NCBI GenBank assembly: GCA_001784175.1
Contig: MFPR01000037.1
Coordinates: forward strand, 59,644 to 123,643
Length of the DNA: 64,000 nt
Reading direction: 5' to 3'
Source: Candidatus Lindowbacteria bacterium RIFCSPLOWO2_12_FULL_62_27
GTDB lineage: Bacteria; Lindowbacteria; 2-12-FULL-62-27
Shown here: positions 3,965 through 22,963 of the stretch, in pieces
How positions within the stretch are numbered: the stretch's first letter is position 1
Layout of the letters: the number at the start of each line of letters is the position of its first letter
Position numbers and translations under genes: made by a program
The notes under the pieces: generated by a model
What the model was told of the DNA's origin: nothing
Databases searched by the model: none
The model's input: the letters and a program-made list of their open reading frames with translations, nothing else

Positions 3965-5038
3965 ATGTCGACCCGCGGCGTCATCGCGCGATACCGGCCG
4001 TACCTGCCGGTCACCGAGTCGACGCCGGTCATCACGCTGCAGGAGGGCGATACGCCGCTTTTGCGGCTGCGCAACGTCGAAAAACATATCGGATGCGAGG
4101 CGGAACTCTACGCGAAGTTTGAAGGGCTGAACCCGACGGCGTCGTTCAAGGACCGCGGCATGACGCTGGCGGTTTCGAAGGCCATCGAGGAAGGCGCCGA
4201 CGCCGTGCTCTGCGCGTCCACCGGAAACACCTCGGCCTCGGCCGCCGCCTACGCCGCCCGCGCCCGCATCAAGTGCGCGGTGATTCTCCCCGAGGGCGCC
4301 ATCGCGCTCGGCAAACTCGCGCAGGCCCTCCTGCACGGCGCGGTGGTCCTGCCGGTCGCGGCCAGCTTCGACGGCGCGCTCGACCTTGTGCGGCAGATCA
4401 GCGCGACTTACCGGATCACGCTCGTCAATTCCGTCAATCCGTACCGGCTGGCGGGCCAGAAGACGGCGGCGTTTGAGATTTGCGATCTCCTCGGCGACGC
4501 GCCCGATTTTCACATCCTGCCCGTCGGCAACGCCGGGAACATCACCGCCTACTGGATGGGATACAAGGAATACTTCGCAGCGGGCCTCAGCAAGCGCCGG
4601 CCGAAGATGTATGGCTTTCAGGCCGAAGGCGCCGCGCCGATCGTGCGGGGCGCGCCGGTCGAAAAGCCGGAGACCATCGCCAGCGCCATCCGGATCGGCA
4701 ACCCCGCGAGCTGGCGGCAGGCCCTGGAGGCGCGGGACGAATCGGGTGGCGAGATTCGCGCGGTGTCGGACGCCGCGATCCTCGAGGCCTACCGGCTCCT
4801 GGCGCGGCTCGAGGGAATTTTCGCCGAGCCCGCATCGGCGGCGGCGCTGGCCGGCGCGATCCAGATGCACGCGGACAAATTGCTGGTCCGCGGCTTCCGC
4901 GCGGCGCTGACGCTGACGGGCCACGGCCTCAAGGATCCGGGCACGGCGCTGAAAGTCGTGCCCGAACCCAAATCGGTCAAGGCGGACGTCGGCGCGATCG
5001 CGGACTTTCTTGGATTGAAAAAAGGCGTTCCCACCTGA
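3965..5038 (+). CDS. thrC: Threonine synthase
   Basis: A 357-residue PLP enzyme that converts O-phosphohomoserine to threonine. The PLP lysine is K62 in the motif NPTASFKDRGM, followed by the ASTGNTSASAAAYAARA phosphate-binding region and the VNPYRLAGQKTAAFEI segment. Length and motifs match the short bacterial form of the fold-type II family. It follows hom by 5 bases. Its stop codon TGA overlaps the putative CTG start of the next gene. Homoserine kinase is not visible nearby; the PfkB kinase upstream is from a different family, and I do not infer that it fills the role. Confidence 0.95.
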   Translation: MSTRGVIARYRPYLPVTESTPVITLQEGDTPLLRLRNVEKHIGCEAELYAKFEGLNPTASFKDRGMTLAVSKAIEEGADAVLCASTGNTSASAAAYAARARIKCAVILPEGAIALGKLAQALLHGAVVLPVAASFDGALDLVRQISATYRITLVNSVNPYRLAGQKTAAFEICDLLGDAPDFHILPVGNAGNITAYWMGYKEYFAAGLSKRRPKMYGFQAEGAAPIVRGAPVEKPETIASAIRIGNPASWRQALEARDESGGEIRAVSDAAILEAYRLLARLEGIFAEPASAAALAGAIQMHADKLLVRGFRAALTLTGHGLKDPGTALKVVPEPKSVKADVGAIADFLGLKKGVPT

Positions 5039-8000
5039 AACGATTCGCGGCGCTGGCCTGCCTCGCGCTGCTCTTGCGGCCGGCGCCCGGATGTGCGGCT
5101 GGAGAGGCCGCCACGGTTACCGAGACCATCACGGTCGGCAAGAGCGTCGAGGTCCATACCTACGAGGTTTCCGGCAAGAAAAAAACGCGAACCGGGATGG
5201 AAAAATATGATCTGAAGGGCGTGAAGAAGAAGGAGGAGCACTACGATCGCGCGGGCCGGCGACACGGCCGGCAGACCGTGTGGTACGAAAACGGCCGCAA
5301 GGATTACGAGAAGGAATTCGTCAGCGGCGAAGTGCAGGGGCGGACCGAAACCTGGTATCGCGACGGCCGGCCGCGCGAATCGTCCGAATGGTCCCGCGGC
5401 CTGCGGCACGGCCGGACCGTGATCACCGACACGCACGGCGAGCGGTACGAAAGCGACTGGTGGGGCGGCGGGATCGCCAACGGCACCGTCATCGTCGAAT
5501 GGTACGAGGGAAACAAGGCGCAGGGCGCGTACCGGACCTACACCTCCGATATTCAATACATCCTGGATGGCCGCCCGGCCCGGGCGTACGTGTTCCGAAA
5601 AGGCGTGCAGGTATTGGAAACCGAATGGTTCCCATCGGGCCGGAAAAAGAGCGAATTCGAATACAAAGAGGGTGTGATGCACGGCCGCGCGCTGATGTGG
5701 CACGAAAACGGCGTCCACAAACTGGAGGCGCAGATCCGCGCCGGCCGGCTCGAGGGCCCGAGGGTCCGGTGGTACGAATCGGGCGAGACGGAGGCGGTCC
5801 AGACGTTTCGAAACGATCTCGCCCACGGGCCCTACCTGGAATGGTACGAAAGCGGCGGCCGGAAATGGGAGGAACTCTGGCAGGACGGCCGGCTGTCGAA
5901 GGTGGTGGGCCGCTGGTATGAGGACGGCCGGCCGATGGATTTGTCGGTCCATGAATTCGAGTCGTTCAATTATCGCCTCCGCGAACTGCCCGCGCCCTGG
6001 TTTCAGGTCAACGCGGAGAAGCTCGAGCCGAAAGCGCAGGTTGCCTACCTGCGCACGCGGCCGGACATCTATCTCTTTGCCGTCGCCGAACCCCTGCCGC
6101 AGAGCGTGTCGACGACGGAGGACCTGGCGCGCGCGATCTTGGCCGGTATCAAGACCACCTCGGAGGCCTTCGCGGAATTCAAGGGCGGCCCGCTCGAGGC
6201 GAACGGCCTGAAGGGGATGTACACCGGCGCGCTGCGCGTGGTGAAGAACACGCGCGAGACGCATTTCATCTGGACCTTGGCGCATCACGGAATGGCTTAC
6301 CGGATCGTGCTTCTCACGCTGGGGGACGTGTCGCAGACCGTATTGCTCGGCGAACTCAAGAAGATCCTGCCTTACTTCGATCTCATCGATCCGGACCGCC
6401 GGTTCGGCGTGGAGGAGCTCAGGCAACTCAAGCCGGAGGTGAAGGTCAAGCCGGTGGAGGAGTACCGGTCGGCGGCATTTGCGTATTCGCTGAAAAATCT
6501 GGGCAAGGGCTGGCTGGAATGGGACACGATCAAAAAAATGTTTCCGTCCGTCGATTTTGCGGCGGTGACGTCGGACAATTACGCGGGTGTCATCGTCGTT
6601 CCGGTATACCTCCACGATCTCAAGCCGACGCCCGAGGAACTCACGGCGGTTCTCTTCGGGCGCTGGGGCCAGCCATGGCCGCCTCCGAACCTCCGCACGG
6701 TGTCGGCGGCAACGGACGCGGGCGCCGAGTACGAACATCGCGGGCAGCTTCTCGGAAGGGACCTGTTCGTCCGCACGCGGATCGTTCGGAAAAAATCGTT
6801 CGCGTATCTCTGCTCGACTATCCGGACATCCGCCGACGAGCGGTACCTCCGGCTTCTCGACGGCGTGCTGGCCGGCGCGGCGTTCGGGGAGGGCGAGCTG
6901 TCCGGCCCGCCGGCGTTCTCGACCGCGCAGACCATCGACAACGCCGCGGTCCTGAACCAGATCGGGCTGCACCTGCAGGACGCGAAGGCGTACGATCGCG
7001 CGGTCCCGTTTTTCAAAAAGGCGTGGGAGGTCCATCCGGAGGAGCCGGTGATTCTGGAAAATCTGCTTGCGGTTCTTCATCAGACGCGGGCCTACCGGGA
7101 GGGCGTGGAGGTGCTGGACCGGGAGATCCCGCGGTTTGAGCGGCGCCTGAGCCTTCGGCGAATCCGCGCGCGGTTCAACATGGAACTGGAGAGCTTCGCG
7201 GCCGCGCGCGCGGATTTCGAGAAGCTTCTGGCGGCGTCGCCGGACGACGAGGATCTCATCTTCAACCTCGCCGGTGTCCTCTGGAAACTCGACGAAAAGG
7301 ACGAGGCGATCCGGCAGGTCGGATCGCGCTGGGACAAAAACAAGTCACCCAAACTCGGCGTATTTCTCGCGCAGCTCCATCGCGCCCGCAGCGAGTACGA
7401 CACCGCCCTCTCGGTGCTGGACCGCACGCAGAGCGGCCGGGCCGTTCATCCGGAAATCACCTACGAGCGGATCGAAAACCTCCTGGCAAGGGGAGACTAC
7501 ACGAAGGCCCGCGATCTCGGGCAGATGCTGATCGATCAGCGCATCGGGAGCGCCGCCGCGTACACCTACCTCGGGATGGCGGAGTATCTGCTGAAGCAGT
7601 ACAAGCGGGCGAAGGAATCGCTCGAGAAGGCGCTGGCGCTCCGGCCGGAGGACGAATCCGTCAAGAAGACGCTGGCCACGGTCTCCGCCCTCCTCGGGCA
7701 GGGCGACAACTCGCTGCTGAAAAATCCGATCCCGGCCGTGCCCTACGCGGCCGCCTTCGATGTCCAGGCCCTGCGAAAGACGCCGACGGCCTCGCCGTAT
7801 TTCTCCGACCACAACGCCGCGTATCTTCTCAAGGTCAAGGCCGTCGAATATGAAAAAGGAAAGACGCACCGGACGACGTACCGCTACGTCATCCGGATTC
7901 TCAACGAGAAAGGCAAGGCCGATTTCGCCGAAATCGATTTTTCGTTCAATCCCACCTACGAATCGCTCTTCGTGAATCACCTCGCCGTCTACAACGCGCG

Positions 8001-9570
8001 CGGCGATAGGGTGGCCGAGGGACAAATGGACCAGTTTTATGTGGTCGACGCGGCCGGCGAGATCCGGACCACGGGGGAAAAGAGCGCGAAACTGCCGGTG
8101 CCCGGCGTCGCGCCGGACCACGTGATCGACGTCATGGTCACGCGGGAAACGCGCGGGTCGGACCGGTTCGGGTTCGAGCGCCATTTCTTCACGTCGGTCT
8201 ATCCCGTTCAGGAACAGCACTACGCCCTCTCGGGGGACGTCGGCAAGCTCGTGTACACGGCCGAACGCCTGCCGGCGCCCGTCGTCGAGCCGGGCCGGCT
8301 GGCGTTCAAGCTGGTCCAGCCGCCGGTTCTTTATATTGAGTCGTTCCTGCCCGCCGTTTCAAAATTCATTCCGTACGCCGCGGTTGCCGACCCCGGTTCC
8401 TGGCAGGCGGAGTTGTCCGAATACTACGCCGGCGTCAAGACGCTGCTCGAACCGGACGACAAGGTCCGCGGGATTGCGCGGGAGCTGACGGAAGGATGCC
8501 CCACGGACCGGTGCCGGGCGGAACGGCTGGTGCGGTACGTTCAAAAAAATCTCAACTATGTCGCCATCGAGTTCGGCCGCCGCGCGCGCACGCCGAACCC
8601 GGTGTCCCAGACGCTGCGGCAAAAATACGGCGACTGCAAGGACCACAGCGTCCTGCTCCACGCGCTCCTGACGAGCGCCGGCATTCCCTCGAAACCGGCG
8701 CTGGTGCACGCCACCGGTGAGATCGACAAGGGCGTGCCGTCCCTCGACCAGTTCAACCACATGGTCGTCCTCGCGCAGGTGGGGGGTGAGGAGGTGGTCC
8801 TCGATTGCACCGGCAAGTATGTCTCGGACCTCTTCCGCCCGTTCCCGCTGTCGGGCCGGCCGATTCTGCCGGTGGCGCCGGAGGCGTCCTTTACGGCGGC
8901 GCCGGCGTATCCGGCCGACGCGGCGGGTGTGACTTGCGTTCGCGATGTGACCTGGTCGGGTCAGACGGGCGTCGACGTTCAGGAGACGGTCGTGATGCGC
9001 GGATATCTGAGCGACGGGTTCCGCGAGATTCTGGGATCGCAAAGCCGGTCCGTGTGGTCGAACCTCATCGCACGGTATCTGGACCGAAGCGGCCGGGACC
9101 TGGTGTTGCGGTCATTTTCGGCCGAAGGCATCGATCAGTTGGATTCGCCGGTGGTCCTGCGGTTGGACTACGCGGTGGACGGAAAATTCGAAACGCTGCC
9201 GGACCAGACCGTCGGCATTCTGCCGGCGTACTGGGAAAATTCGCTGCTGGCCGTCCCGAAAGTCTCGCGGCGCCACCATCCTTTTGAAAACGACCTGACC
9301 GGCCGATTCGAAACGGAGGTCCGGTTCCGGATGCCCGCCGGCCACGCGTTGAAAAACGCGGACATCCTGGGCGCCGCGCGCATCGACGAGCCGTTCCTCA
9401 AGGGCGCCTCGGGTGGCGACGTGTCCGAAGACGGTTTCCGGTTCCGCTCCACCTGCGATTTCCTCCCGGCCACAGGTGATGCCGCCGCGTATGCCTCCTA
9501 TGCCCGCGCGGTCAGCGCCGCCTTGGACCGCCTGCAACCGAGGGTGGTTTTGGGCCGGAAGGCAAACTGA
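5035..9570 (+). CDS. Large secreted MORN/TPR/DUF3857/transglutaminase-like protein
   Basis: A 1511-residue exported protein. No ATG, GTG or TTG precedes the signal peptide in frame. The best start is CTG at 5035, overlapping the thrC stop as CTGA with an AAAAAAGG-type site upstream, and it gives MKRFAALACLALLLRPAPGCA as signal. Domains in order: YwqK/MORN_2-like repeats (about 55-300; repeats of G-x-H-G-x-x-x-WYENG), an unassigned region, TPRs (about 635-890), a DUF3857-like beta region (about 915-1090), and a transglutaminase-like fold with Cys in GDCKDHS (about residue 1200), His in QFNHMVV and Asp in LDCTGKY. The Cys-His-Asp triad appears complete, so it may be an active cysteine hydrolase or ligase in the envelope. 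The substrate is unknown. Confidence 0.8.
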   Translation: MKRFAALACLALLLRPAPGCAAGEAATVTETITVGKSVEVHTYEVSGKKKTRTGMEKYDLKGVKKKEEHYDRAGRRHGRQTVWYENGRKDYEKEFVSGEVQGRTETWYRDGRPRESSEWSRGLRHGRTVITDTHGERYESDWWGGGIANGTVIVEWYEGNKAQGAYRTYTSDIQYILDGRPARAYVFRKGVQVLETEWFPSGRKKSEFEYKEGVMHGRALMWHENGVHKLEAQIRAGRLEGPRVRWYESGETEAVQTFRNDLAHGPYLEWYESGGRKWEELWQDGRLSKVVGRWYEDGRPMDLSVHEFESFNYRLRELPAPWFQVNAEKLEPKAQVAYLRTRPDIYLFAVAEPLPQSVSTTEDLARAILAGIKTTSEAFAEFKGGPLEANGLKGMYTGALRVVKNTRETHFIWTLAHHGMAYRIVLLTLGDVSQTVLLGELKKILPYFDLIDPDRRFGVEELRQLKPEVKVKPVEEYRSAAFAYSLKNLGKGWLEWDTIKKMFPSVDFAAVTSDNYAGVIVVPVYLHDLKPTPEELTAVLFGRWGQPWPPPNLRTVSAATDAGAEYEHRGQLLGRDLFVRTRIVRKKSFAYLCSTIRTSADERYLRLLDGVLAGAAFGEGELSGPPAFSTAQTIDNAAVLNQIGLHLQDAKAYDRAVPFFKKAWEVHPEEPVILENLLAVLHQTRAYREGVEVLDREIPRFERRLSLRRIRARFNMELESFAAARADFEKLLAASPDDEDLIFNLAGVLWKLDEKDEAIRQVGSRWDKNKSPKLGVFLAQLHRARSEYDTALSVLDRTQSGRAVHPEITYERIENLLARGDYTKARDLGQMLIDQRIGSAAAYTYLGMAEYLLKQYKRAKESLEKALALRPEDESVKKTLATVSALLGQGDNSLLKNPIPAVPYAAAFDVQALRKTPTASPYFSDHNAAYLLKVKAVEYEKGKTHRTTYRYVIRILNEKGKADFAEIDFSFNPTYESLFVNHLAVYNARGDRVAEGQMDQFYVVDAAGEIRTTGEKSAKLPVPGVAPDHVIDVMVTRETRGSDRFGFERHFFTSVYPVQEQHYALSGDVGKLVYTAERLPAPVVEPGRLAFKLVQPPVLYIESFLPAVSKFIPYAAVADPGSWQAELSEYYAGVKTLLEPDDKVRGIARELTEGCPTDRCRAERLVRYVQKNLNYVAIEFGRRARTPNPVSQTLRQKYGDCKDHSVLLHALLTSAGIPSKPALVHATGEIDKGVPSLDQFNHMVVLAQVGGEEVVLDCTGKYVSDLFRPFPLSGRPILPVAPEASFTAAPAYPADAAGVTCVRDVTWSGQTGVDVQETVVMRGYLSDGFREILGSQSRSVWSNLIARYLDRSGRDLVLRSFSAEGIDQLDSPVVLRLDYAVDGKFETLPDQTVGILPAYWENSLLAVPKVSRRHHPFENDLTGRFETEVRFRMPAGHALKNADILGAARIDEPFLKGASGGDVSEDGFRFRSTCDFLPATGDAAAYASYARAVSAALDRLQPRVVLGRKAN

Positions 9571-11130: not shown

Positions 11131-11670
11131 ATGATCAAAACGGGAACCAAAAATCCGCATGCGGTGGCGTTGGGTAGAAAAGGCGGGGTCCTAAGCGCGA
11201 AGGTCCGGTTGGCGGGCGCGTCCAAAAAGGATCTGTCGGCGTGGGGAAGAAGGACCGTCCAGGCCCGCTGGGATCGGCGGCGGGTGACCCTCAAGCGTGC
11301 GGCCGAATACGTGAGCAGTGCGCGGTCCGATATCGGGGCGGCTCTGCGTGAATTTTACCACGACCTTGCAGCAGCGCCGTCCCATATCCTGATTGCGGAT
11401 GAACCGCCGCCGACGGGCAACGCCGCGTACGATGCCTACCTTGCAGCGGTGGCGGAAACGGCCGCCGCACGGTTTGATTGGAACCCGCCGGCATGGGTCG
11501 ACCATAAAAGTCGTTTCCTTCCCGCGCCGTATTTTGCGAATGCTCCGGCCGGGATGAGGATTTATCTTCTTCAGGCTTCTCCGGGGCCGTTTCGGCGGCG
11601 GAACATTTTTGTCGACAAAGACGCCGTAACCGGCGCCATCCGAAAATGCGGGATGGAGCGGAGCCGATGA
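11131..11670 (+). CDS. Putative antitoxin of a nucleotidyltransferase pair
   Basis: A 179-residue protein I do not recognise by name. Its N-terminus (NPHAVALGRKGGVLSAKVR followed by a WGRRTVQARWDRRR stretch) resembles the short GG-K-A-R / A-x-x-A-R-W motif often found in small proteins encoded beside nucleotidyltransferase toxins. It is basic at the N-terminus, which suits DNA or RNA binding, and has no membrane segment. It overlaps the next gene by ATGA. The strong promoter with an operator immediately upstream and the overlap fit an antitoxin/autorepressor, but this is inference from context. The mRNA is probably leaderless. Confidence 0.55.
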   Translation: MIKTGTKNPHAVALGRKGGVLSAKVRLAGASKKDLSAWGRRTVQARWDRRRVTLKRAAEYVSSARSDIGAALREFYHDLAAAPSHILIADEPPPTGNAAYDAYLAAVAETAAARFDWNPPAWVDHKSRFLPAPYFANAPAGMRIYLLQASPGPFRRRNIFVDKDAVTGAIRKCGMERSR

Positions 11671-12218
11671 AGAACGAATTCCGTTTCGGGCGGGAACGAA
11701 TCCGCCGGCTTCTCAATCGGTTGAGCGAAATGCTCGAACGGGAGAAAATCCGGGGTGAGATTCTCCTGTTCGGCGGCGCCGCCATGGTCCTGGGGTGGAA
11801 CGCCCGGCGGGCAACCCGCGACATCGACGCGGTCTTTGAGCCTCCGGCCAGGATCAGGCGGCTGGTCAGGGAGATTGCGGAGGAGGAAGGCCTGCAGGAT
11901 GCGTGGCTCAACGATGCGGTCAAGGGGTTTATCGATCTATTGCCGGACAAGGCGGATTTCAGAAAATCCGTCTTTTCCACCGACCATCTCCACATCTATA
12001 CGCCCCCGCCGGAATATCTTGTCGCCATGAAGGCGCTGTCCGCCCGGACGGAGGTCGAGGCCGAGGACACCCATGATCTGAAATTTCTGATAAAAAAAAT
12101 GCGCCTGAAATCTCCCGCCGCCGTTTTTCGGCTGGTATCGAAGTACTATCCCAAAAGGCCCATTCCGGCCAAGACAGTGTTTTTCGTCGAATCCGTGTTC
12201 GAGGACATTGGAAAGTAG
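11667..12218 (+). CDS. DUF6036-like nucleotidyltransferase (putative toxin)
   Basis: A 183-residue protein with the minimal nucleotidyltransferase signature: LLFGGAAMVLGWNARRATRD followed by IDAVF, giving the GG motif and a D-x-D pair (RDIDAV). The rest is helical with an HDLKFLIKKM segment typical of DUF6036/AbiEii-related enzymes. Such proteins transfer nucleotides to tRNA or protein targets and act as toxins in several two-gene modules. The ATG overlaps the upstream stop (ATGA), so translation is probably coupled. A hairpin follows the gene at about 12226-12269. The toxin role is inferred. Confidence 0.65.
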   Translation: MKNEFRFGRERIRRLLNRLSEMLEREKIRGEILLFGGAAMVLGWNARRATRDIDAVFEPPARIRRLVREIAEEEGLQDAWLNDAVKGFIDLLPDKADFRKSVFSTDHLHIYTPPPEYLVAMKALSARTEVEAEDTHDLKFLIKKMRLKSPAAVFRLVSKYYPKRPIPAKTVFFVESVFEDIGK

Positions 12219-14581: not shown

Positions 14582-15859
14582 TTACAGCGTTTTGATCGCC
14601 CGGCCCGCGCGGTCCAGGGTCTGGTCGATCACGTCGTCCGAATGGGACGCGCCGACGAACCACGATTCGAACTGCGACGGCGGCAGATACACGCCCTGCC
14701 GGAGCATGGCCCGATGAAAGGCCGCGAACCGGCGCGTGTCGCAACGCAGGGCCTCCTCGAAGGACGAAACGTCCCGGTCCGTGAAGAACACCGTCATCAT
14801 GCTGCCCACCCGTTTGAGGCGGTGCGGCACGCCAGCGCTCCGAAGGCGCCACGAAATTCCGCGCGCCAGCCGGTTGGCCCTCGTTTCCAACATCGCATAC
14901 GGGGGATGGGCGCGCAAGTGCCGCAGGGTGGCGAGGCCGGCGGCGACGGCGAGCGGATTGCCGGACAGCGTGCCGGCCTGATAGACGGGGCCGAGCGGGC
15001 TCAGGCGCCGCATGATCCGGCCGGGCCCGCCGAACGCGGCGAGCGGCATGCCGCCTCCGACAATTTTTCCGAGACACGTGAGGTCCGGCTCGATGCCGAA
15101 CAATTCCTGCGCGCCGCCCGGCGCGACGCGAAAGCCGGTCACGACTTCGTCAAAAATCAGTAGCGCGCCGCACTTGCGCGTGCTGCGCCTCAGCGCCTCC
15201 AGGAACCCGACCCGCGGCGGGATCACGCCCGCGTTGGCCGCAACCGGCTCCACCACCACTGCGGCGACTTCGCGGCCGCGCGCCGTGAGGAACCGCGCGA
15301 CGGCGCCGATGTCGTTGTACGGCAGGACCGTCGTGAGCCGCGCGAGCGGCGCCGGCACGCCCGGCGAACTTGGATGGCCGAACGTCGCGGCGCCGGAGCC
15401 CGCGGACACGAGGAAGCTGTCGGCGTGGCCGTGATACCCGCCGGTGAACTTGACGATCCGGTCCCGCCGGGTGACTGCGCGCGCAAGCCGCGCCGCCGAC
15501 ATGAGGGCTTCGGTGCCGGACGACACTAGGCGGACCTGCTCCACACCCGGAACGCTCGCGCAGATCAACTCGGCAAGATCGACTTCCTGCCGCGTGGCCG
15601 CGCCGAACGTCGTGCCCCGCTTCACCGCGGCGCTGATCGCTTTGACGACGGCCGGATGCGCGTGGCCCAGGATGAGCGGTCCCCAGGAACACATGTAGTC
15701 GATGTACTTGCGCCCCCGCTCGTCGTACATGAACGGGCCCTGCCCGCGCGCGATGAACGGCGGCGTTCCGCCGACCGCGCGAAACGCGCGAACCGGACTG
15801 TTGACGCCGCCGGGGATTGACCGTGCGGCGCGCGCAAAAAGGTTGGATCCGCGGCTCAT
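14582..15859 (-). CDS. hemL: Glutamate-1-semialdehyde 2,1-aminomutase
   Basis: A 425-residue PLP enzyme that forms 5-aminolevulinate from glutamate-1-semialdehyde in the C5 route to heme. The catalytic lysine is K265 in CLGKIVGGGMP. The PLP-binding FDEVVTGFRV and the N-terminal IPGGVNSPVRAF signature are intact, and length is normal. It lies 17 bases after the VWA-flagellin gene and just before tatA, an odd mix for one operon. Heme supply fits an organism with a multiheme cytochrome operon. Confidence 0.95.
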   Translation of the reverse strand: MSRGSNLFARAARSIPGGVNSPVRAFRAVGGTPPFIARGQGPFMYDERGRKYIDYMCSWGPLILGHAHPAVVKAISAAVKRGTTFGAATRQEVDLAELICASVPGVEQVRLVSSGTEALMSAARLARAVTRRDRIVKFTGGYHGHADSFLVSAGSGAATFGHPSSPGVPAPLARLTTVLPYNDIGAVARFLTARGREVAAVVVEPVAANAGVIPPRVGFLEALRRSTRKCGALLIFDEVVTGFRVAPGGAQELFGIEPDLTCLGKIVGGGMPLAAFGGPGRIMRRLSPLGPVYQAGTLSGNPLAVAAGLATLRHLRAHPPYAMLETRANRLARGISWRLRSAGVPHRLKRVGSMMTVFFTDRDVSSFEEALRCDTRRFAAFHRAMLRQGVYLPPSQFESWFVGASHSDDVIDQTLDRAGRAIKTL

Positions 15860-15876: not shown

Positions 15877-17319
15877 TCATCCGAGCAGGCTCAATACGTT
15901 CTGGGGCAGAAGATTCGATTGCGCGAGCATGGCGTTGGCGGACTGGACGATGACCTGGGCCTTTGTGAATTCGATGATCTCGGCCGCCATGTCGGTGTCG
16001 CGGATCCGGGATTCGGCGCTTTGCATCGCCTCGCCGGCGACGCGCGCATAATCGAGCGTGAACCCGAGCCGGTTGATCTCGGCGCCGATGGAGGACCGGA
16101 TCCGGGTCAGCCGGTCGATGGCGGTGTCGATGAAGGAAATGGAGTTTTCGGCGGCCGTCTGGGTGGACGCCGAAACATTCCCGGCCAGTCCCAGCGCCCG
16201 GGTGCTCACGGGCGCCTGGAGAGCGCTGGTAAAAGTCTGATTCTTGTTCGCGCCCACATGAAATTTAAACAACGTCCCGATGGCCGAATCGACCTGGGCG
16301 GCGAGGTTGGACGCGAACGTGCCGGCCAGCGACGTGAACGTCCTGCCGCCGGTCGCGTTTGGAACGCCGATGCCGTTGTCGCCGGCCACCTGTGTGGAGG
16401 CGTCCCGGTATTCGATGTCGGCCGGCAGACCGGGATTGGCGCCGGCGCCGATGATCGCCGCGGACGTGACCACGTCGACCACGATCTCGTTGGACGTCAT
16501 GAGGGCATTGGTCGACGCGAGGATGTCGGCGCCCGTAAAATTGTTGCCGCCGTCGTCGGAGTCCTCGTCGGTCAGGATCATGAAAAACTTCCGGGCGTTC
16601 TGGCGAAAGGTGAGGTTGTTGAGGGCAAACTGGAGCGCGGCCATTCCATTTTCGGTGCCCGAACCACCCGTGCCGACGTTGCCGACGTCGGCAGCGAACT
16701 GGCCGGCGTTGCTGGTGAAGTTTCCAACGACGCTTGTGTTGGCGGCGTTGGAAAATCCGATGGTCGCCGCGCGCGCGTCGACGTTCCGATTGGCGAGTTC
16801 GCTGAAAAACGAGGGCGCGGCGGCTTTCAAGGACGCCTGTTGGCCGCCCATGCTGCCCGAATTGTCGATGATCCAGACGATGTCGGCGGTGGAGTAGTCG
16901 AATATCCGGACCTTGTTGAATTCGGCCGACGTATGAATGCGGTCGATCTCGTCCATGAGCTCGGCAATTTCCTGCTGGATGAGCGCGCGGTCCGAGTTGC
17001 TGTAAATCCCGTTGGCCGCCTGGATCAGCAGCTCCCGCATCCGCTGGAGGATGTCGTGGATATCCTGGATCGCGGCGTCGGCGGTCTGGAGGAGGGACGC
17101 GCCGTCCTGGATATTGAGGGCGGCCCTCTGAAAGCCGCGCACCTGCGCCCGCAGCCGTTCGGACACGGCCAGGCCCGCCACGTCGTCCGAGGACCGGTTG
17201 ATCCGGTAGCCGCTGGACAGCCGCTCGAGCGCCTTCGAAAGCGTCCCGTTATTTAACATCGCCTGCCGGTGCGCGAACATCGCCGTGACGTTGTGCTGCA
17301 CCGAATAGATACCCGACAT
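15877..17319 (-). CDS. Flagellin with an inserted von Willebrand factor A domain
   Basis: A 480-residue protein. Residues 1-142 are a canonical flagellin N-terminal D0/D1 region (ALERLSSGYRINRSSDDVAGL, LNIQDGASLLQTADAA, AEFNKVRIFDY). Residues 352-480 are the C-terminal D1/D0 region ending SNLLPQNVLSLLG. Between them, about 144-350, is a VWA domain with a complete-looking MIDAS: DNSGS (152-156), a threonine in GSGTENG (about 222) and Asp in LTDEDSDD (about 251). The VWA domain replaces the surface-exposed D2/D3 region, so it would decorate the filament. The ATG at 17319 is preceded by GGGAG at normal spacing; an upstream in-frame ATG at 17346 lacks one. It is probably cotranscribed with hemL. 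Confidence 0.88.
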   Translation of the reverse strand: MSGIYSVQHNVTAMFAHRQAMLNNGTLSKALERLSSGYRINRSSDDVAGLAVSERLRAQVRGFQRAALNIQDGASLLQTADAAIQDIHDILQRMRELLIQAANGIYSNSDRALIQQEIAELMDEIDRIHTSAEFNKVRIFDYSTADIVWIIDNSGSMGGQQASLKAAAPSFFSELANRNVDARAATIGFSNAANTSVVGNFTSNAGQFAADVGNVGTGGSGTENGMAALQFALNNLTFRQNARKFFMILTDEDSDDGGNNFTGADILASTNALMTSNEIVVDVVTSAAIIGAGANPGLPADIEYRDASTQVAGDNGIGVPNATGGRTFTSLAGTFASNLAAQVDSAIGTLFKFHVGANKNQTFTSALQAPVSTRALGLAGNVSASTQTAAENSISFIDTAIDRLTRIRSSIGAEINRLGFTLDYARVAGEAMQSAESRIRDTDMAAEIIEFTKAQVIVQSANAMLAQSNLLPQNVLSLLG

Positions 17320-17422
17320 CACATTTCTCCCGGCCCCATCGTTCATCGACCGGCCGCGGGCGGACGGAGAAACCCCTGCCGTCTGCGGACAGACGGATAC
17401 TTATGGCCTCAAATATAAAACA

Positions 17423-17449
17423 GGCAGGGGCTGCGGTTCAGCCCCTGCC
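17423..17449 (-). terminator. Intrinsic terminator after the 57-residue gene
   Basis: An 11-bp GC-rich stem at 17423-17433/17439-17449 with a 5-nt loop is followed on the minus strand by TGTTTTATATTT. It separates the small gene from the flagellin gene downstream, which therefore needs its own promoter. A second hairpin (CCGTCTG/CAGACGG, 17379-17396) lies in the flagellin leader. Confidence 0.7.
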
Positions 17450-17468: not shown

Positions 17469-17642
17469 TTAGCCGTACAGAAGCAGATGCCTGACCTCGT
17501 CGATCAGCTTGCTCGCTTCCTCCGGTGTCTTGACCTTGGGCAGCGCGTCGTGCGCCACCAGCCGTTGTTCCCGGGCTTGCTTGACTTCCTTGCTGGGCTC
17601 CCGGAACGCGGGCAGATTCGAGTGAATTCCCTGGACATCCAT
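17469..17642 (-). CDS. Small protein of unknown function upstream of the VWA-flagellin
   Basis: A 57-residue soluble, charged protein with no membrane segment or known motif. Translation from ATG 17642 is supported by a strong GGAGGTG site 11-12 bases upstream. An ORF extension to 17798 exists but has no Shine-Dalgarno. The C-terminus (TPEEASKLIDEVRHLLLYG) is probably helical. It has its own terminator and precedes the flagellin gene. A role in flagellin expression or assembly, like other small flagellar proteins, is only a guess from position. Confidence 0.55.
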   Translation of the reverse strand: MDVQGIHSNLPAFREPSKEVKQAREQRLVAHDALPKVKTPEEASKLIDEVRHLLLYG

Positions 17643-17869
17643 GTCCCTTTCACCTCCGCATGTGGCGTCCGTCGGTCGGACGTGCCTGTATCCATCCGTG
17701 GATACGATGTCAGGGGCAGGAAAGGTCGTGGGTTGGAAAATGAGAGGACCAGTGTGAACCTCCATGTTCGCGCCAACGGCCTTCCCTGGCCTGACCAATA
17801 CGGTTCATTTTACTCATCGGCCGTCGGGCGGCGGTTCTTTAATCCGCTCCAACAAGTTACAAGAGCCCC

Positions 17870-22150: not shown

Positions 22151-22963
22151 CTATTCCAAAAGCCGGCCGGCGTTCTGCCGGTTGATGTTTCCCTGAGCGG
22201 TCCCCAGAAGTCCCGCGTTTTCCCGAACGGCGTTCAGCGTCAGCTCGACCAGTTCAAGCGCGGCGTCGGCGTCCTCGATTCGGGCCTGGGCGGCGGTTTG
22301 ACTTTCCCTGGAGGCGAGCGCGGTATTCAGGGCCGAGTCCAGCCGCCGGAGCGTCGATCCGATGTCGGCCCGCTCGGTCGCGACCGTGTTCACCGCTCCC
22401 TGCGCCACGCCGATGGCGGTCTGGACGCCCGCGGCGGTGGTCACATCGAGGCCGGCCAGACCCAGAGCGTCGGACCGGGCATCGGACAGGATGAGGGTGA
22501 GGGTGTCCGGAGCGTTGGCGCCGAGTTGAACCGTGCCGGAGAATGCGCCGGACAGAAGTTTCTGCCCGTTGAATTCGACGGATTCCGCGAACCGGTCGAT
22601 TTCCTGCGTGACCTGATCGATTTGCGTCTGAATCTGTTTCCGGTCTTCCGCGTTCAGCGTCCCGTTGGCGGCGCGGCCGGACAAATCATTGATTTGGCCG
22701 GCGAGGTCCTGGATTTGTGAGAGTCCGGCGTCGGCGGTCTGCACCAGGGACGCAAAATCCTGGATGTTGCGGCTCGCTACGTTCAGCCCACGGCTCTGGA
22801 GGTTGATGCGTTCCGCAACCGACGCGCCGGCTGCGTCATCGGCGGTTTCCTGGATTCGAAGTCCGGACGCGATGCGGGCGAGTTGCTTGCCGATTTCGGA
22901 ATGCGTGACCTGGTGTTGCCGCAGAGCGGAGATCAAATTGTCGTCATGAACTTGGATGGCCAT
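22151..22963 (-). CDS. Flagellin
   Basis: A 270-residue flagellin with the canonical N-terminal region (IASGLRIQETADDAAGASVAE, SRNIQDFASLVQTADAGLSQ) and C-terminal region (RIEDADAALELVELTLNAV). It has only a very short central segment, so little beyond D0/D1. ATG 22963 was chosen for the GGGAGGG site just upstream; a longer ORF to 23020 lacks one. No other flagellar structural gene lies nearby. It probably builds the plain filament subunit, contrasting with the VWA-bearing flagellin 5 kb away. Confidence 0.9.
   Translation of the reverse strand: MAIQVHDDNLISALRQHQVTHSEIGKQLARIASGLRIQETADDAAGASVAERINLQSRGLNVASRNIQDFASLVQTADAGLSQIQDLAGQINDLSGRAANGTLNAEDRKQIQTQIDQVTQEIDRFAESVEFNGQKLLSGAFSGTVQLGANAPDTLTLILSDARSDALGLAGLDVTTAAGVQTAIGVAQGAVNTVATERADIGSTLRRLDSALNTALASRESQTAAQARIEDADAALELVELTLNAVRENAGLLGTAQGNINRQNAGRLLE

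Follow-up and report, generated by a model that had tools for sequence, protein, structure and literature searches.

We analysed a 64,000-nucleotide stretch of contig MFPR01000037.1 from the draft genome of Candidatus Lindowbacteria bacterium RIFCSPLOWO2_12_FULL_62_27 (hereafter the window), in which one minus-strand gene encodes a flagellin with a von Willebrand factor A (VWA) domain between its conserved ends. A sequence-only reading of the window had located this gene correctly, leaving its strand unstated, and had proposed intact flagellin termini around a VWA domain. Pfam profiles bear this out, with four matches above their respective cut-offs: Flagellin_N (128.3 bits, cut-off 26.6), Flagellin_C (6.8e-20; 71.6 bits, cut-off 23), VWA (PF00092, residues 146-272; 46.4 bits, cut-off 23.8) and VWA_2 (residues 148-251, 1.3e-7; 32.7 bits, cut-off 27). 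The gene is a real, intact flagellin with a VWA domain in its surface slot, and the matches are far beyond chance.

Structure prediction leads to the same assignment. The AlphaFold2 model of the insert, which has a mean predicted local distance difference test score (pLDDT) of 60, with mostly 67-91 in the first ~110 residues and poor values in the last 75, shows the alternating alpha/beta order typical of VWA domains. When it was compared with the PDB (Foldseek, VIA-align), the matches were VWA structures, with Z of 12-14 across 132-188 residues; the best of them include integrin beta I domains, Toxoplasma MIC2 and the vWFA domain of the LapA adhesin. The full-chain model (mean pLDDT 66) consists of a flagellin core and a VWA domain, and the best Foldseek match of the core is to a Leptospira filament flagellin (E 1.8e-12). 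The sequence-only reading had, however, put the VWA domain in place of the surface domains, and on this point it needs correction. The plain flagellins of the host are without D2/D3 and have only a linker of about 20 residues at this site; because they pass from this linker straight into the FHVGANKNQ hairpin, the VWA domain fills an empty slot and is not a replacement of D2/D3.

One could still suspect that misassembly created a chimeric gene here, or that the domain call is spurious. We found nothing in favour of this, although the host genome is a draft of 44 contigs. Against it, the gene is a single uninterrupted frame within a contig of 123 kb, a composition break across the insert was looked for and none was found, and the VWA domain is recognised by two Pfam models as well as by fold comparison. 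Furthermore, an independent genome of a sister genus (G001), one of the three genomes that represent the host's phylum here, encodes a full-length orthologue of 505 amino acids with 47% identity and the insert at the same position. With the same insertion point in a second genome and no step in composition, we reject an assembly chimera, and we regard this explanation as a whole as scarcely credible.

Table 1. The VWA-flagellin gene, its parts and nearby features (positions in the window)
Feature	Position	Strand	Basis or remark
VWA-flagellin gene, 480 aa	15877..17319	minus	one open frame; ATG at 17319, stop 15877-15879
Flagellin_N, residues 7-142, D0/D1 N-terminal half	16894..17301	minus	Pfam 2.8e-37; helices in model
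VWA insert, about residues 143-350	16270..16893	minus	PF00092 6.7e-12 and models; modelled well to ~276, distal part poorly
MIDAS motif 1, DNSGS (D152, S154, S156)	16852..16866	minus	invariant alignment columns
MIDAS motif 2 threonine T222 (GSGTENG)	16654..16656	minus	alignment
MIDAS motif 3 aspartate D251 in LTDEDSDD	16567..16569	minus	invariant alignment column
C-terminal D1/D0, residues 352-480, with FHVGANKNQ hairpin and Flagellin_C 395-479	15880..16266	minus	Pfam and alignment with plain flagellins
Putative ribosome-binding site GGGAG, 7 nt 5' of ATG at 17319	17327..17331	minus	read from the sequence
Intrinsic-terminator-like hairpin, 11 pairs, T-rich tail, upstream of VWA-flagellin	17423..17449	minus	2 found, 2.3 expected in shuffles
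HemL-like gene (glutamate-1-semialdehyde aminotransferase)	14582..15859	minus	named from sequence, no profile scan
Plain flagellin paralogue, 270 aa, divergent	22154..22963	minus	Pfam 2e-29 and 1.6e-8; long branch in core tree

The metal-ion-dependent adhesion site (MIDAS) of the domain, which looked complete to the sequence-only reading, appears so at the level of individual residues, since D152, S154 and S156 of motif 1, T222 of motif 2 and D251 of motif 3 are all present. In an alignment with 31 VWA domains from viral contigs, which were chosen by the pattern DNSGSM and thus share motif 1 by construction, D152, S154, S156 and D251 stand in invariant columns, and T222 directly follows the invariant G221.

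The combination of Flagellin_N, VWA and Flagellin_C recurs outside the host's phylum. Clear candidates beyond the host's family were found in two further genomes (G258 and G121) of a sample of 386; our samples do not gauge distribution across all bacteria. Within the phylum of these two, represented by seven genomes, four genomes encode eight VWA-flagellins, on that phylum's own flagellin cores and with VWA domains from the subfamily to which the window insert belongs. Both flagellin ends are recognised by Pfam in six of the eight, and the VWA domain is above the cut-off in two, below it in four and visible by alignment only in the remaining two. Despite low overall identity, all eight copies have motif 1 (as DxSxS or DxTxS) and the motif-3 aspartate, the latter usually inside TDEDSDD. 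Four apparent full-length matches elsewhere (G143, G376, G081 and G006) proved on sequence inspection to be ordinary long flagellins without VWA. A search with the G258 protein (E 1e-10) in a sample of 385 largely identical genomes found no clear new phylum, and a scan of named genomes returned only flagellins without the DxSxS motif. As a separate observation, four genomes of the seven-genome phylum (G258, G386, G389 and G121) have 15 to 21 Flagellin_N matches each, a large flagellin expansion.

The histories of core and insert do not coincide. In a tree of flagellin cores from which the insert was excluded, the window protein groups with the flagellins of its own phylum (Shimodaira-Hasegawa-like approximate likelihood ratio 98) on a branch of ordinary length (0.42), and the VWA-flagellin cores of the second phylum lie apart from it, near other divergent flagellins of that phylum. 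In a tree of VWA domains, the inserts of the second phylum are joined with support of 94/97 and the window insert adjoins them weakly (50/45). A single ancestral VWA-flagellin inherited by both phyla is not supported, as the cores of the two phyla group with different flagellins. Because the two trees differ, flagellins probably acquired the VWA domain on two or more occasions, or the domain moved between them as a module. These patterns raise the possibility, which we put forward tentatively and as somewhat doubtful, that integrin-like flagella are recurrent: one VWA subfamily, marked by GFDxRM, TDEDSDD and the MIDAS, would have been inserted into the native flagellins of two or more unrelated, little-studied phyla, making their rotating filaments metal-dependent adhesive or capture fibres.

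The host has the parts into which such a subunit could be built. One FlgI (P ring) and one FlgH (L ring) are encoded in its genome, from which we expect a flagellum that passes through the outer membrane and has an external filament. A periplasmic flagellum of the spirochete type, as the best PDB matches to Leptospira might suggest, is unlikely given these two proteins. We thus argue that the VWA domain would be exposed on an external filament. The sequence-only reading had envisaged mixed filaments with the plain flagellin encoded 5 kb away. Plain flagellins are indeed available, but that neighbour is a long-branch paralogue, and the closest ones (309 and 310 amino acids) are encoded on another contig, C20, where they closely follow flgN, flgK, flgL, fliW and csrA. 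Over the N-terminal part they share 68% and 54% identity with the VWA-flagellin, and these two, not the divergent paralogue, are the likeliest filament partners.

The architecture, the MIDAS residues, the predicted folds, the external type of basal body, the close plain partners and the recurrence in a second phylum all support a functional alternative or minor flagellin that displays a metal-dependent binding domain on a normal external filament, a proposal to which we give about an even chance. Its D0/D1 parts would be exported by the normal flagellar machinery and would polymerise into the external filament, mixed with the plain flagellins of contig C20. The VWA domain in the D2/D3 slot would then turn its metal site outward and bind a ligand, which might be a surface, a polysaccharide, a protein or a neighbouring cell. 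The benefit could be adhesion, capture or surface sensing; the adhesion organelle of the sequence-only reading is one inference of this kind.

Several observations weigh against this proposal. The main reason for caution is the orthologue in G001, in whose insert DTGSA replaces DxSxS and the motif-3 aspartate is lost. This insert is VWA-like by its match to a profile of flagellin VWA domains (19.3 bits, E 4.7e-8 for one target) and by hhalign (E 7e-5); its local alignment score was reached by 4 of 1000 shuffles, and hhalign of the phage-derived VWA alignment against it gave no match. A VWA-like domain without a MIDAS would fit either a structural role or a lineage-specific loss of binding. In addition, of the nine MIDAS-bearing copies only two, one of them the window protein, keep the motif-2 threonine. 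The gene, moreover, is an orphan outside the flagellar cluster, and a search for a sigma-28 promoter upstream of it recognised none; the C20 flagellins are also without a good one. A perfect (16/16) sigma-28 match does lie about 223 nucleotides upstream of a third type of flagellin on contig C2 (start 10061, minus strand, locus L042), and is absent 5' of the other flagellins examined.

The first two of these observations favour another reading, in which the VWA domain is a structural outer domain: like D2/D3, it would give the filament stiffness or a shield or take part in subunit-subunit contacts, and the MIDAS would be incidental or only stabilising; outer domains of flagellins can be structural (PMC8931119). 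However, the intact MIDAS of the window protein and the retention of motif 1 and the motif-3 aspartate throughout the second phylum argue against such a role, and we consider it rather unlikely. The orphan locus and the unrecognised promoter, on the other hand, could mean that the protein lies outside the motile filament, as a rare separate appendage, a secreted monomer or a decaying orphan paralogue. Two related VWA proteins (L197 and L223), whose flanks Pfam no longer recognises as flagellin, point in the same direction. Yet both D0/D1 ends of the window protein are well conserved, its core branch is of ordinary length, a full-length orthologue (47% identity) has been retained and the genome encodes one basal-body set, so that we judge a place outside the filament to be improbable. 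If a metal-dependent binding domain is indeed displayed, a swimming filament may also grip things. Flagellar adhesion has often been claimed, usually without an identified binding domain, and a flagellin with a recognisable metal-site domain makes the claim directly testable.

A further relative shows that the slot can hold other inserts. A flagellin of the same flagellin family in the third genome of the phylum (G002, L045:8969-10756, plus strand) has an HExxH insert, AHESTHVLQF, in the same slot and is likewise an orphan gene outside any flagellar cluster. Its match to the flagellinolysin family is weak (69 bits, cut-off 205), and by sequence it is possibly a divergent flagellinolysin. In one phylum of three genomes, the same slot thus holds nothing, a VWA domain, a MIDAS-less relic of one or an HExxH insert, which shows the flagellin surface in use as an exchangeable display site. 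The only other match to the flagellin insert in the host's own genome is in a giant open frame on contig C2 (43827-110684, minus strand, L268-L271), which comprises 22,286 residues with long extracellular repeat-like stretches and reaches the contig end. Two or more VWA motifs lie within it. The opening ~700 residues are apparently read in the wrong frame and 18 N bases are included, so that the true protein is probably longer than 21,000 amino acids.

As for the gene itself, translation could also start, less plausibly than at 17319, from the in-frame ATG at 17346. The hairpin upstream should insulate the VWA-flagellin from a 109-codon open reading frame (17469-17798, minus strand), although it is a weak indication on its own. 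This frame has no Pfam match and lies between the VWA-flagellin and a divergently oriented gene for an MMPL-family transporter. The HemL-like gene begins 17 nucleotides past the stop codon of the VWA-flagellin and is possibly co-transcribed with it, but it is not known to belong to the flagellin system. The neighbourhood of the G001 orthologue is not syntenic with this locus. Elsewhere in the window, a 1696-residue open frame with a TTG start (4480-9570, plus strand) has MORN-like, TPR-like and transglutaminase-like stretches by eye. A DUF6036 nucleotidyltransferase gene and a partner without Pfam match (11131-12218, plus strand) form a possible toxin-antitoxin pair, which is also present in G002 (L045:5990-7223, minus strand). 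The pair lies a few kb from an odd flagellin in both genomes, probably by coincidence.

The sequence-only reading had implied that the architecture is new, but flagellins of this kind were counted in 2017. In Table 1 of Eckhard et al. (PMC5595980), vWFA ranks eighth among the domains of flagellin hypervariable regions, with 21 of 26,587 flagellins. By the table's description (vWFA within the hypervariable region) the architecture is the same; the main text gives a count only, without sequences, MIDAS, taxonomy or function, so that the comparison is one of descriptions. In the open-access literature that we searched, a part of the whole, we found no functional study of any vWFA-flagellin. As far as checked, the pattern of MIDAS conservation, the MIDAS-less orthologue, the HExxH relative and the split history of core and insert are new.

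Other extracellular VWA proteins resemble the VWA-flagellin in part. In Paenibacillus sp. NAIST15-1, flagellar motility on hard agar is linked to CmoA, an extracellular vWFA protein whose gene adjoins flagellar genes (PMC5072692), but unlike the VWA-flagellin CmoA is secreted by a signal peptide, has IPT/TIG repeats and lacks flagellin domains (PMC5072692). PilY1, the pilus tip adhesin PitA of Streptococcus oralis and LapA also have an extracellular VWA fold, and our insert matched the folds of the LapA vWFA domain (9no5) and of PitA (7w6b), among others. However, these are tip proteins or large secreted adhesins, whereas the VWA-flagellin is putatively a repeating subunit of a rotary filament. 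Flagellinolysin (FlaMP/FliA(H), NF033876) shares with the VWA-flagellin a functional globular insert in the same slot, plain partner flagellins and a patchy distribution across phyla. Its insert is a zinc metallopeptidase, not a VWA domain, and is proven in filaments; the VWA-flagellin has no HExxH in its insert and, with 61.6 bits against a cut-off of 205 for NF033876, does not belong to this family. In filaments made mainly of plain FliC, flagellinolysin is a functional subunit of lower abundance, distributed along the length (PMC7643111), and it may serve as a working analogy for the VWA-flagellin as a minor functional subunit.
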